The notes under the pieces: generated by a model
What the model was told of the DNA's origin: nothing
Database searches by the model: none
The model's input: the letters and a program-made list of their open reading frames with translations, nothing else
Translations under genes and position numbers: made by a program
IMG/VR virus record: IMGVR_UViG_3300043446_000798
Location: 1-35,998 of that record
Source: a virus
DNA length: 35,998 nucleotides
Strand: one strand, 5' to 3'
In this document: in pieces, positions 14,331 to 17,614 of the stretch
Layout of the letters: each line of letters opens with the position of its first letter
Numbering within the stretch: position 1 is the first letter of the stretch

Positions 14331-14355
14331 AGCCGCCCTGCCAGGCGGCTTTTTT
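14331..14355 (+). terminator. Rightward-facing intrinsic terminator inside a leftward operon
   Basis: AGCCGCC (14331-14337), loop CTGCCA, GGCGGCT (14344-14350), then TTTTTT and ATTTT. The T-run is on the + strand, so it stops rightward (antisense) transcription. Leftward the tail is only CTCTTTC, a weak terminator. It lies between the homing endonuclease stop and the primase-helicase ribosome site. Confidence 0.6.
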
Positions 14356-14845
14356 ATTTTATGGCGCTTAACAAGCGTGTTTCGGCAGCGTGCCGTGCAG
14401 CAATCGCAGCCGACATGTCATCGAACAAGCCTAGATTAAAGTTTTTGTAGCCTACTTTGATGCGCGCGTTCCACTTCTTGCGATCTGCGCGCCATGTGAC
14501 GCCCGACACCCCACTTTTACTGCCGGATCGAACCGGTATATTGTGCATGTTCGTCGATTGGTCTGCAAGCCGCAAATTGCTCATTCGGTTGTCGTTTTTA
14601 ATGCGGTTTATATGATCTAAACCTTTTGCGGGCCATTCACCATACGTGTAAAGCCAGGCTAAACGATGCGCTTTATATAGCACGGTGTCCAGCCGAATAA
14701 CGATATACCCGTAGCCGTCTCTGGCCCCGGCAGCTGCGCCTTGTTGCGCGCGAGGATGGCTGACTTTCCACGTAAACACGCCAGTGTCAGGTGCATAATG
14801 CAGTAATTCCTTCAACCGTTTTTGCGTAATCACCGCGCCCTCCAT
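14354..14845 (-). CDS. HNH homing endonuclease with AP2 DNA-binding domain
   Basis: A 163-residue selfish nuclease. The HNH_3 core runs from about residue 57: AHRLAWLYTYGEWP (H60), LDHINRIKNDNR (D77, H78, N80) and NLR at 90-92. The C-terminus is an AP2 domain (SGVSGVTWRADRKKWNARI, YKNFNLGLFD). This is a standard H-N-H plus AP2 phage homing enzyme. It is free-standing between the DNA polymerase stop (4-base gap) and primase-helicase, and does not interrupt either gene. The neighbouring polymerase gene is the likely homing target region. The antisense-facing terminator at its 3' side may have come with it. Confidence 0.9.
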   Translation of the reverse strand: MEGAVITQKRLKELLHYAPDTGVFTWKVSHPRAQQGAAAGARDGYGYIVIRLDTVLYKAHRLAWLYTYGEWPAKGLDHINRIKNDNRMSNLRLADQSTNMHNIPVRSGSKSGVSGVTWRADRKKWNARIKVGYKNFNLGLFDDMSAAIAARHAAETRLLSAIK

Positions 14846-14849
14846 AAAG

Positions 14850-16814
14850 TTACTTGCCGTAGCGTAACATTATACTGCCTTCGGCAGCAAGCGGCAATCC
14901 TTCGGCCCATGCAGGTGCGGTCGTCATTATTTCGTGCATGCGGGCGCTGACGCGATCGGCATCCGCTTCGTCGCACTCTACGACCGCCTCATCATGAACG
15001 TGGGCTACGGCTGCAAACCCTTCACGGTCTAATGTGCGTAATGTCTCGCGCAACAAGTCGTGCGCTGCTGCCTGGGTTATATTTTCTGTCGCCAAACCGC
15101 GCCACAAACGGGCGCGTGGCCATTCCTTCGCATCAGCTGCCGGCTTCCAAGCTGCTTTAACGTAAGTGATCTCGTCTCCCTCGAACCGGGCGAATGGGTA
15201 GCACAGGATGCGACCCGACGGTAGCGCGTACCAAAGATGCTGGCCTTGGAACAGGTACGTCACCCGCCCAGCGGTGAACTCCCGCCCAGGGTTGCGTAGC
15301 GCCCGCGTGTATGCCTCTTCGAGCTTGGCCCAGTAGCGCACCGCCCATGCGTTCGCGCGGCGCCAGGCGTCCACAATGCGGCGGGAATCGGACTCTGGCA
15401 TAACGATGCCGTAGTTGCGACCCATCGCGGAAAAGGCACCCACAGACCCCCCAAATCCTAAACTGAGGATTGCGACTTTCCCTATCTGGCGTTGCTCTTT
15501 TGATACTGTTTCTTCATTGATGCGGTAAATACCTGCGGCTTCACGCTTATAGATGTCGCGACCTTCGCGGAAGACTTGTAGCACCTCCTCAGCCTGTGGA
15601 TCGGCTGACGCCCACGGAGTCATTCTTGCTTCGATAGCCGACCAATCGTAACCGACAAATACTTTTCCTGGCGCTGGTATTAGTGCGGGCCTGAGCATTC
15701 CCCGGAGAACATCCGTAACGCGTTTTCCAAATCTTGGTGTGATGCTGTGGCCTCTGACCATAGAGTGGCGTATTGCTTCCGGATCTTCGGCGCATTTTCG
15801 TGACATATTGTGTAATTGAGCGCCATAGCTTGAAGCACGTCCGGTGGCAGATCCTCCTGCAAATACGAAAGCACCTCGTACTCGTTGATCGTCTTCGTCT
15901 GCCAGGCTCGCAAGGCGGCTGAACTTCGCAACCGACGACGCCCAGAGGTCATCTGCGCATTGAATGACGTCCGCAACAGTGGTCGGAATCTCATCAGGGT
16001 TCTCCTCGGCAAAAGCCAGCAAATTAGCGCGTACAGACTTGTCGATACTGTACTTTAGTTCGCCGTCCTTGTACGTCTCCATCATCTTTAACGCCTGCGG
16101 TCCGACGCGGGCCATGACCCACGACTTCATGCGCGGACTGCGAACAGACGCGATCTCGCCTTCGGTCAAGTCGGCCACCAGCGTCTCGATCTCTTCGAGT
16201 TCGACCGACGCGTAACGAATGGCGGCCTGCGCAAGTGGCAGGTCGAGCAGCACGCCACGGTCGTTGATGCGCTCGTTGGTGTGGTAGTCGGCCAGCTCCT
16301 GCTCGGACAGCGGGCGCATGGCCTTGGAGATTGCGCGCATGGCTCTGACGTCCTGCTCGCAGTAGCGGATCATCTCGGCCATTAACTCTGGCGAATTGTT
16401 AAACGATCCATCAGCGCGAGGGATGGAAAGTAGTCGGATAAGCTGTCCACCTCGGTGGTCTTTTCGCATGACGCTGGAGATGGCGCGTCCGACGTCTTCG
16501 AGAGATCCAGGCAGGCAGTTAGCACGCGCTTGTGCCGCTGTGCAATAGAACTGCGTGAGATCAAAATTAACTTGTAGGACGTACCAGAATATAAGGCGCT
16601 CGAACGCAGCGTTATGAGCGTAGATTCGCCCCTTGTGATGCCGAACCGCGTCAGGGAACGGCTGGTCGGGAGTCCAGGTGATAACTTCATCGTCGTCAAA
16701 CGCGTAGGACATACAAAGTACATCGGTGGTTCCATCTTGGGCATAGTTATAGACTCCCCGTGAGGATAGGTCGCACTTGGACCTCGTTTCGAAATCAATC
16801 CAGAGTATTGTCAT
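14850..16814 (-). CDS. Family A DNA polymerase with 3'-5' exonuclease
   Basis: A 654-residue replicative polymerase. Exo I: WIDFET (D7, E9); Exo II: YAHNAAFE (65-72); Exo III: YCEQD (151-155), so proofreading residues are complete. Polymerase motif A is VGYDWSAIEAR (387-397), motif B RQIGKVAILSLGFGG (442-456), motif C AHVHDEAV (D608, E609). The length and exo-pol order fit the short phage/prophage Pol I group found with DUF2800 and VRR-NUC nucleases. The N-terminus MTILWIDFETRS fixes the start. There is no Shine-Dalgarno before this ATG; instead a large hairpin (16824-16896) precedes it, hinting at translational control. It acts with the primase-helicase two genes downstream. Confidence 0.95.
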   Translation of the reverse strand: MTILWIDFETRSKCDLSSRGVYNYAQDGTTDVLCMSYAFDDDEVITWTPDQPFPDAVRHHKGRIYAHNAAFERLIFWYVLQVNFDLTQFYCTAAQARANCLPGSLEDVGRAISSVMRKDHRGGQLIRLLSIPRADGSFNNSPELMAEMIRYCEQDVRAMRAISKAMRPLSEQELADYHTNERINDRGVLLDLPLAQAAIRYASVELEEIETLVADLTEGEIASVRSPRMKSWVMARVGPQALKMMETYKDGELKYSIDKSVRANLLAFAEENPDEIPTTVADVIQCADDLWASSVAKFSRLASLADEDDQRVRGAFVFAGGSATGRASSYGAQLHNMSRKCAEDPEAIRHSMVRGHSITPRFGKRVTDVLRGMLRPALIPAPGKVFVGYDWSAIEARMTPWASADPQAEEVLQVFREGRDIYKREAAGIYRINEETVSKEQRQIGKVAILSLGFGGSVGAFSAMGRNYGIVMPESDSRRIVDAWRRANAWAVRYWAKLEEAYTRALRNPGREFTAGRVTYLFQGQHLWYALPSGRILCYPFARFEGDEITYVKAAWKPAADAKEWPRARLWRGLATENITQAAAHDLLRETLRTLDREGFAAVAHVHDEAVVECDEADADRVSARMHEIMTTAPAWAEGLPLAAEGSIMLRYGK

Positions 16815-16823
16815 GGTAGAGGG

Positions 16824-16896
16824 TGACCCCTGTCATCTTGCCAGCATCAGGCCGAACCGACCAAGGAAGAACCTGATGATTAGATGACCGGGGTCA
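16824..16896 (-). other. Large two-stem hairpin in the DNA polymerase leader
   Basis: Outer arms of 15 bases, 16824-16838 (TGACCCCTGTCATCT) and 16882-16896 (AGATGACCGGGGTCA), pair with one mismatch. Inside, CATCAGG (16845-16851) pairs perfectly with CCTGATG (16872-16878) around a 20-base loop. The structure ends 10 bases before the polymerase ATG and holds the only purine-rich stretch (AGGGG) that could help ribosomes bind. It could be a protein-binding or attenuating RNA element, or a single-strand initiation site in DNA. Confidence 0.7.
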
Positions 16897-16968
16897 TAGA
16901 AAAGGTGGGGTACTCGCTGCGTCTGGTTCTGTCTCGTCGTCAGTGGTGAATTCTGACTTCCCCAGCAT
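16894..16968 (-). CDS. Possible 24-codon leader ORF before DNA polymerase
   Basis: ATG at 16968 preceded by GGGGGAAAGCGG; the peptide begins MLGKSEFTTDDETEPDAAS and ends PPFL. It is acidic and soluble, not membrane-like. Its stop codon falls in the first bases of the large hairpin, the arrangement of a leader peptide whose translating ribosome would open or block a downstream structure. Support is only the ribosome site and position. A second overlapping 50-codon frame from 16978 is possible too but has no ribosome site. Confidence 0.3.
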   Translation of the reverse strand: MLGKSEFTTDDETEPDAASTPPFL

Positions 16969-16987
16969 CCGCTTTCCCCCATGCTAC

Positions 16988-17614
16988 TTAGCCGCGACGG
17001 CGGCGGGCAGGTGCGGCTTCGGCTTCAGCAGTCTCTTCGGCTGCGTCGGTCGATTTGCCATCCATGCTGATCCACTCAACGATCTCAAAGACCGGTGTGT
17101 AGATCTTGCCGTACGACTTGTGCTGATAGTGGTCTTTTTTGAGACGCACGACCGGCACGGGCTTGCTTTGATCGGCTTCGACTTGTGCAGCAATCGCAAC
17201 GCCCAGCTGCTGGACCGCGCGCTTACCACCCACAGACGTGACGGTGTAGCGCACCTCCAAGTCCTTGTCCTGACCGTTAAGGCATTTCAGCCCCATTCCA
17301 ACCTGCACTTCCCAGCCCTTCTTCGCATCAGGCGGCGCAACGCCGACTTCAGGACGTGGCTCAGTCACTGGCACCATTGTTTCGGCCAGCACTTCACCTT
17401 CACCCCATGCGATAAAGCCGTGAACGAACGACATAGGATTGACTGCCCATGTGGTGCCGTCTTCGACTTCGGTTTGGTTCGCACCGTAGACCCAGTGGCC
17501 ACCCTTGTCCATCTTCAGAATGACGGAGCCAACAGCGCCGACATCTTTTTCCAATGAACGAAGCGCAGTAGTGAGCGCGGATACGTTTGGCAGGTTTGCT
17601 ATAGCGAATGACAT
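16988..17614 (-). CDS. Conserved replication-operon protein, possibly single-strand DNA-binding
   Basis: A 208-residue protein of a family regularly found between Cas4-like nuclease and DNA polymerase in phages of this type (often labelled hypothetical or DUF2815-like). Blocks seen: MDKGGHWVYGANQTEVEDGT, WAVNPMSFVHGFIAWGEGE, VGMGLKCLNGQDKDLEVRYT, SVGGKRAVQQLG, and YGKIYTPVFEIVEW. It looks like a beta-rich core followed by an acidic Glu/Ala linker and a basic RRRRG tail. Beta barrel plus charged tail and the operon position suggest ssDNA binding in replication, but I cannot show it. ATG at 17614 has AAGGAAACTACA before it. Confidence 0.8.
   Translation of the reverse strand: MSFAIANLPNVSALTTALRSLEKDVGAVGSVILKMDKGGHWVYGANQTEVEDGTTWAVNPMSFVHGFIAWGEGEVLAETMVPVTEPRPEVGVAPPDAKKGWEVQVGMGLKCLNGQDKDLEVRYTVTSVGGKRAVQQLGVAIAAQVEADQSKPVPVVRLKKDHYQHKSYGKIYTPVFEIVEWISMDGKSTDAAEETAEAEAAPARRRRG

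Follow-up and report, generated by a model that had tools for sequence, protein, structure and literature searches.

Two conserved RNA structures in series precede the DNA polymerase gene in a freshwater phage lineage and may regulate its translation

The DNA polymerase gene of an uncultured freshwater phage is preceded by a leader of 173 nucleotides that holds two conserved RNA structures, one behind the other. We call them A and B. Element A follows the stop codon of the upstream gene, whose product is a putative single-strand DNA-binding protein (SSB); element B follows A and ends just short of the polymerase start codon. We propose that this leader acts in cis, as an RNA of two parts, to set the translation of polymerase relative to that of the preceding gene, a proposal that we hold tentatively and rate a little below an even chance. 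An earlier note on this DNA drew attention to the hairpin in B; it passed over A, a second and far more widespread structured element in the same leader.

The window analysed is a stretch of 35,998 nucleotides (IMG/VR record IMGVR_UViG_3300043446_000798). The leader lies on its minus strand, between the stop codon of a 208-residue gene (16990-16988) and the polymerase ATG at 16814. Read along the message, the stop codon is followed by 6 nucleotides, A, 8 nucleotides, an AUG at the foot of B, B itself, 9 nucleotides and the polymerase AUG. The polymerase gene (14850-16814, minus strand) encodes a family A enzyme of 654 amino acids, matched by Pfam DNA_pol_A at 3.7e-20 and by the PHROG DNA polymerase family at 2.5e-95. 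The identity of the upstream protein (16988-17614, minus strand) is less clear. Its sole PHROG match is a family annotated 'nucleotidyltransferase', a sequence search of the PDB returned no match, and its AlphaFold model (pLDDT 77) gives weak matches to SSB-like folds, with E about 0.1. We therefore dropped the claim of a proven SSB, which the PHROG, PDB and fold comparisons fail to establish, and call the protein SSB-like, a putative assignment made from the weak fold hits and its position.

Element B is a hairpin of 73 nucleotides (16824-16896, minus strand). Its lower stem pairs 16896-16882 with 16838-16824, two arms of 15 nucleotides that are 93% complementary; its inner stem pairs 16878-16872 with 16851-16845, 7 nucleotides that are fully complementary. 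This is the hairpin of the earlier note, with its 15-bp arms bearing one mismatch and its inner 7-bp stem, except that the gap to the polymerase ATG is nine nucleotides and not ten. Computed folding, which the note had proposed as a check, gives -36.3 kcal/mol (z = -4.6), and none of 200 shuffled sequences is equally stable. Stability by itself is insufficient as a claim, because 21 of the 8,982 73-nucleotide windows of this phage (0.2%) fold at -36 kcal/mol or better. What exceeds chance for B is covariation in relatives.

A search with the polymerase protein yielded 80 uncultured viral loci, of which 26 contain a complete B and two more a B cut at a contig end. These loci, together with others found by the loop sequence, gave an alignment of 36 distinct homologues. 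In the stems, 96.8% of cells are paired. Two-sided, compensatory changes occur in 11 of the 22 pairs, in 63 cells, a level reached by none of 500 shuffles; the covariation of both stems that the earlier note had asked for in homologous phages is thus present. In every slid register of the alignment, pairing drops to 19-48%. The stem cells include 76 G.U pairs as against 2 A.C, and therefore the constraint is on RNA, in the sense of the message. B is a real, conserved RNA structure whose functional strand is the message. A covariance model, R1, matches 16817-16905 at 104 bits, with the window sequence included in its training alignment.

The apical loop of B is conserved in a different manner from the stems. 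Its 10 nucleotides, CCUUGGUCGG (16857-16866), are identical in all 36 distinct sequences. This loop served as the search anchor for part of the loci, and loci retrieved with the polymerase protein alone carry it just as consistently where their B is complete. As for a pairing site in the polymerase mRNA, the loop complement CCGACCA has a single 7-nucleotide match in the window, which is lost in the relatives examined.

Element A (16906-16981, minus strand) begins with a basal stem, 16981-16977 paired with 16910-16906, and runs in the order GGGGGAAAGCGGAUGC, a variable apical part, and GCAGCGAGUACCCC. From its sequence, the core (GAAA/GAGUA) appears to resemble a loop-E motif (GAA/AGUA) flanked by short helices. 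A covariance model built from other contigs, R2, matches 16896-16986 with 66 bits and an E-value of 3.5e-14. Across 30 distinct sequences of the family, 91.9% of cells are paired and 48 two-sided changes are seen, again reached by none of 500 shuffles. The core is partly invariant by construction, because many A sequences were found by pattern; the protein-fetched loci contain variants, such as GGGCC/GGCCC basal stems. A is a conserved RNA fold of the mRNA strand; its stems covary and its apical part is interchangeable.

The strict A pattern occurs in at least 120 viral contigs, and among 84,980 prokaryote genomes in only two contigs, one from a Limnohabitans MAG and one from a beta-proteobacterium MAG. 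Among isolated phages in GenBank no relative of the leader was found, the exception being A in uncultured Manatee Spring genomes. When 30 viral records of 31-62 kb were scanned with the covariance model, 28 had exactly one copy; of the other two, one has an A with an unusually long apical part and one a simple hairpin instead. Two copies about 475 nucleotides apart were seen in a bacterial genome of the Limnohabitans genus group (G048, loci L331 and L333).

The position of A is strikingly regular. Its basal stem lies 5-8 nucleotides past a stop codon, in the sense orientation, in 119 of 138 cases. The genes that precede it come from a number of unrelated families, among them several of single-strand DNA-binding proteins: SSB (PF00436), Enc34_ssDNA-bd, DUF669 and PHROG single-strand-binding families. 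Others encode a Gam-like protein, DUF2303, Pam3_Gp34, a Cys-rich peptide or unknown products. Beyond A, start codons without a Shine-Dalgarno (SD) sequence cluster at 6-12 nucleotides, and those with one are found from 15 nucleotides on. The same apical insert, TGACCAGTTAGCTGAAATGCAAAGGCAGT, stands behind unrelated genes at eight loci and others besides, which suggests that the apical part, or A as a whole, has been exchanged by recombination. A short, secreted-looking Cys-rich peptide ending in CVTCTTCCYGNSCNTNCY or a similar sequence recurs beside A in different phages, at six loci and also at two more.

In contrast to A, B was seen in one polymerase lineage only, always immediately behind A; a set of 251 bacterial genomes that held no positive control contained no B. 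Over 37 loci, divergence of B correlates with divergence of the polymerase (Mantel rank r 0.50); within the main subtype the coefficient is 0.31, or 0.39 leaving out inserted genes (p = 0.002 for these correlations). Against the physically nearer upstream protein r is 0.01-0.03. In these comparisons, made on related and recombining sequences, the divergence of B tracks the polymerase and not the closer gene.

In polymerase relatives, the start of this gene usually overlaps the preceding gene (by -20, -4 or -1 nucleotides) or follows a closed intergenic RNA structure, which is a simple hairpin, A, or A with B; the exceptions have a small ORF in between. Six relatives without A have an unrelated simple GGGG/CCCC hairpin between stop codon and polymerase start. 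In relatives with A only or with a simple hairpin, the whole intergenic region folds at -12 to -40 kcal/mol. Where genes have been inserted between B and the polymerase gene (methyltransferase, HNH and others), their ends overlap the polymerase start in most cases seen, so this leader can still act on polymerase.

HNH endonuclease genes lie on either side of the polymerase gene. In the window, one lies downstream of the polymerase gene (14354-14845, minus strand); in relatives L014, L034 and L202, one lies between B and the polymerase gene, just before the latter. Contig 3300044701_000610 has both arrangements, one at each end, which looks like an insertion polymorphism within one population. 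In L202, L014 and L235, the HNH insert between B and the polymerase gene carries at its start a strong hairpin of its own, CCCTGTTCTGCATTCT...GCAGAACAGGG, which looks like a terminator and has a T run behind it.

How is the polymerase start recognized? As the earlier note had observed, it has no free SD sequence; the rule that found none here finds one for about two thirds of 42 checked ORFs in the window. Nor did any locus checked show an SD in the stretch from B to the following AUG. The nearest purine run is GGGG at 16830-16827, inside the 3' arm of the B stem and 12 nucleotides before the polymerase AUG. This SD-like GGRG is present in 47 of 47 distinct B elements. Its mean unpaired probability in the computed fold is 0.06, and its distance from the AUG, 10-14 or 22-25 nucleotides, is long for an SD. 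It could be a buried SD.

Two short ORFs in the leader can be set aside. The possible 24-codon ORF of the earlier note (16894-16968, minus strand) does exist, and its stop does fall in the first bases of the hairpin; it is not conserved, and in other elements the reading frame opened by the same AUG ranges from 2 codons to more than 100. Because this AUG belongs to the invariant GGAUGC of A, we regard the ORF as a by-product. A 49-codon ORF (16833-16982) was rejected as well, its AUG reading ACG in many relatives. A better leader-ORF candidate, judged from sequence, is a five-codon ORF at the foot of B (16880-16897, minus strand), AUG ACC CCG GUC AUC UAA or MTPVI*, which begins 8 nucleotides past A. 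Its AUG is kept in every distinct B listed except that of L014, and A-only relatives have the polymerase AUG in the corresponding place, 9-11 nucleotides past A. In most other B elements the mini-ORF reads M-A-P/L-V-I/T/V-stop. The arm that contains it varies mainly at codon third positions, with a mean entropy of 1.15 as against 0.34 and 0.43 (permutation p = 0.012). It has no visible SD. The mini-ORF remains only a candidate because in some subtypes the stop is missing and reading continues, with changes that look non-synonymous.

How might these parts act together? We infer a gate, in which the mini-ORF and a partner for the loop would have their roles. A, placed right after the stop codon, would be a ribosome-termination structure that limits re-initiation, and it probably also protects the upstream message. 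B would then gate polymerase: when folded, it would bury the sole SD-like stretch and the AUG of the mini-ORF, and the proposed consequence is low polymerase output. A ribosome translating the mini-ORF would open the lower stem, and the gate is probably tuned through CCUUGGUCGG, either by a factor bound there or by a tertiary contact of the loop. The most likely outcome would be abundant SSB-like protein and scarce polymerase. The covariation of A and B, the mRNA-sense bias of B, the tracking of polymerase, the overlapping or structure-preceded polymerase starts of relatives, the overlap of inserted genes with the polymerase start, the SD-less starts, the near-invariant AUG and the spacing of A are consistent with such a gate. 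Against it stand the loss of the mini-ORF stop in some subtypes and of the AUG in one element, the long distance from GGRG to the AUG, and the slight exposure of GGRG on simulated opening of the lower stem by a ribosome: its unpaired probability, 0.06 beforehand, reaches no more than 0.23, since the 3' arm folds anew. Gating by the ribosome alone would also leave the invariant loop unaccounted for. A may even act in the opposite direction: by bringing stop and start together, it would promote re-initiation, a reading that fits the same spacing data.

Some alternatives to the gate take B to be a recognition site. With a lower stem of about 15 bp, an asymmetric internal loop and an upper stem of 7 bp, and placed between two genes, B is built much like the sites cut by RNase III, and some relatives carry simple hairpins at the same place. 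On this account B would be an intercistronic processing site like the R sites of T7, A and B would protect the upstream mRNA, and a separate polymerase mRNA would be released. Yet RNase III reads shape and not a 10-nucleotide apical loop, which is nonetheless invariant, and cleavage explains neither the near-invariant AUG nor the tracking of polymerase. We consider a processing site unlikely, though it and the autogenous operator treated next are serious rivals of the gate.

Somewhat more doubtful is an autogenous operator, in which the phage's own polymerase, or else the SSB-like protein encoded upstream, would bind B, mainly at its loop, and repress polymerase translation in the manner of T4 gp43. 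The invariant loop, the parallel divergence of B and polymerase, and an SD-less start adjoining the hairpin would all fit. Against these, B is missing from relatives whose polymerase is about 70-78% identical, which have A alone, a simple hairpin or overlapping genes, and a gene other than polymerase can directly follow B. The earlier note had likened B to the T4 operator while calling it larger and different in sequence; the differences stand, and the likeness is otherwise general only. Both are hairpins in the leader of a phage DNA polymerase gene. The gp43 operator is a hairpin of 16-18 nucleotides with a UAAC loop, about 40 nucleotides upstream of the start, with sequence that overlaps the ribosome-binding site; loops of this type read UAAC, CAAC or UAAA, and the gp43 polymerase is of the alpha type (PMC3014915). 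B, to which this operator has no similarity, is 73 nucleotides long with stems of 15 and 7 bp and the loop CCUUGGUCGG, lies 9 nucleotides from the AUG, precedes a family A polymerase and sits behind a second element. Judged by sequence, size and position, then, B is not a T4 gp43-type operator.

That B is an aptamer, controlling polymerase through a metabolite or a host RNA-binding protein, seems improbable to us. A conserved loop on freely covarying stems is the usual look of an aptamer, but there is no Rfam match and the genes that follow B show no metabolic theme. It is more improbable still that A and B function at the level of DNA, as an origin, a recombination joint or a homing site, and that the RNA fold is incidental. 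The identical apical inserts of A behind different genes, and the HNH and methyltransferase genes inserted just past B, would suit such a role; the excess of G.U over A.C in B, which points to RNA of one particular strand, and the fixed spacing of A from stop codons in the sense orientation argue against it. The least credible reading, of very small probability, is the attenuator suggested by the earlier note, here a transcription attenuator with a leader peptide: a short ORF and a hairpin do precede the gene, but other elements do not keep the 24-codon ORF, a search for terminator-like sites came up empty, and no U-run is kept past A or B.

The proposed functions of the two elements have partial parallels elsewhere. 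Structure right past a stop codon has been reported to lower re-initiation (Chemla et al. 2020, PMC7518266). These ribosome termination structures are stable folds immediately past the stop between operon genes, and A and the simple hairpins of relatives are placed likewise; they are generic folds, whereas the A elements are homologous to one another, share a fixed core with an exchangeable apical part, and usually occur once per phage genome. We liken A to them by analogy of position and stability, and an effect on re-initiation is putative. The candidate mini-ORF of B recalls mgtQ, a very short intergenic ORF that lies across alternative stem-loops, remodels them and governs the gene downstream (PMC8092293): it too would be short, intergenic and placed over a hairpin arm, but it lacks a visible SD and any known stalling or aborting sequence. 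The L17 downstream element and similar 3'-UTR motifs are, like A, structured RNAs directly past a gene, a location called highly unusual in bacteria (Weinberg 2010, PMC2864571). A and B differ from them in being beside phage genes and in matching no Rfam model: with Rfam 15, neither element was matched at gathering score in the window and 12 relatives, and nothing credible appeared in the leader at E up to 10. In the literature searched, which covered few subscription papers, we did not find A or B described.

A broader form of the proposal, possible in our judgement though doubtful, is that these are two undescribed phage RNA families in series. A would be a single-copy element fixed past the stop codons of early replication genes, often those of single-strand-binding proteins, and exchanged among unrelated freshwater phages of betaproteobacteria; B would be a ribosome-gated switch, derived beside A, that makes polymerase synthesis depend on how the preceding gene is translated.

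Phage replication requires much SSB and little polymerase. To our knowledge, little has been established about how this ratio is controlled in phages other than T4. In the present case, an RNA of two covarying parts is maintained throughout a phage lineage, between an SSB-like gene and the polymerase gene. We regard A and B as cis-regulatory structures of phage mRNA that probably help to set the amount of DNA polymerase. A is the more surprising half: standing behind single-strand-binding proteins of unrelated families, it would offer a natural, recurring module for testing the role proposed for structure at stop codons.
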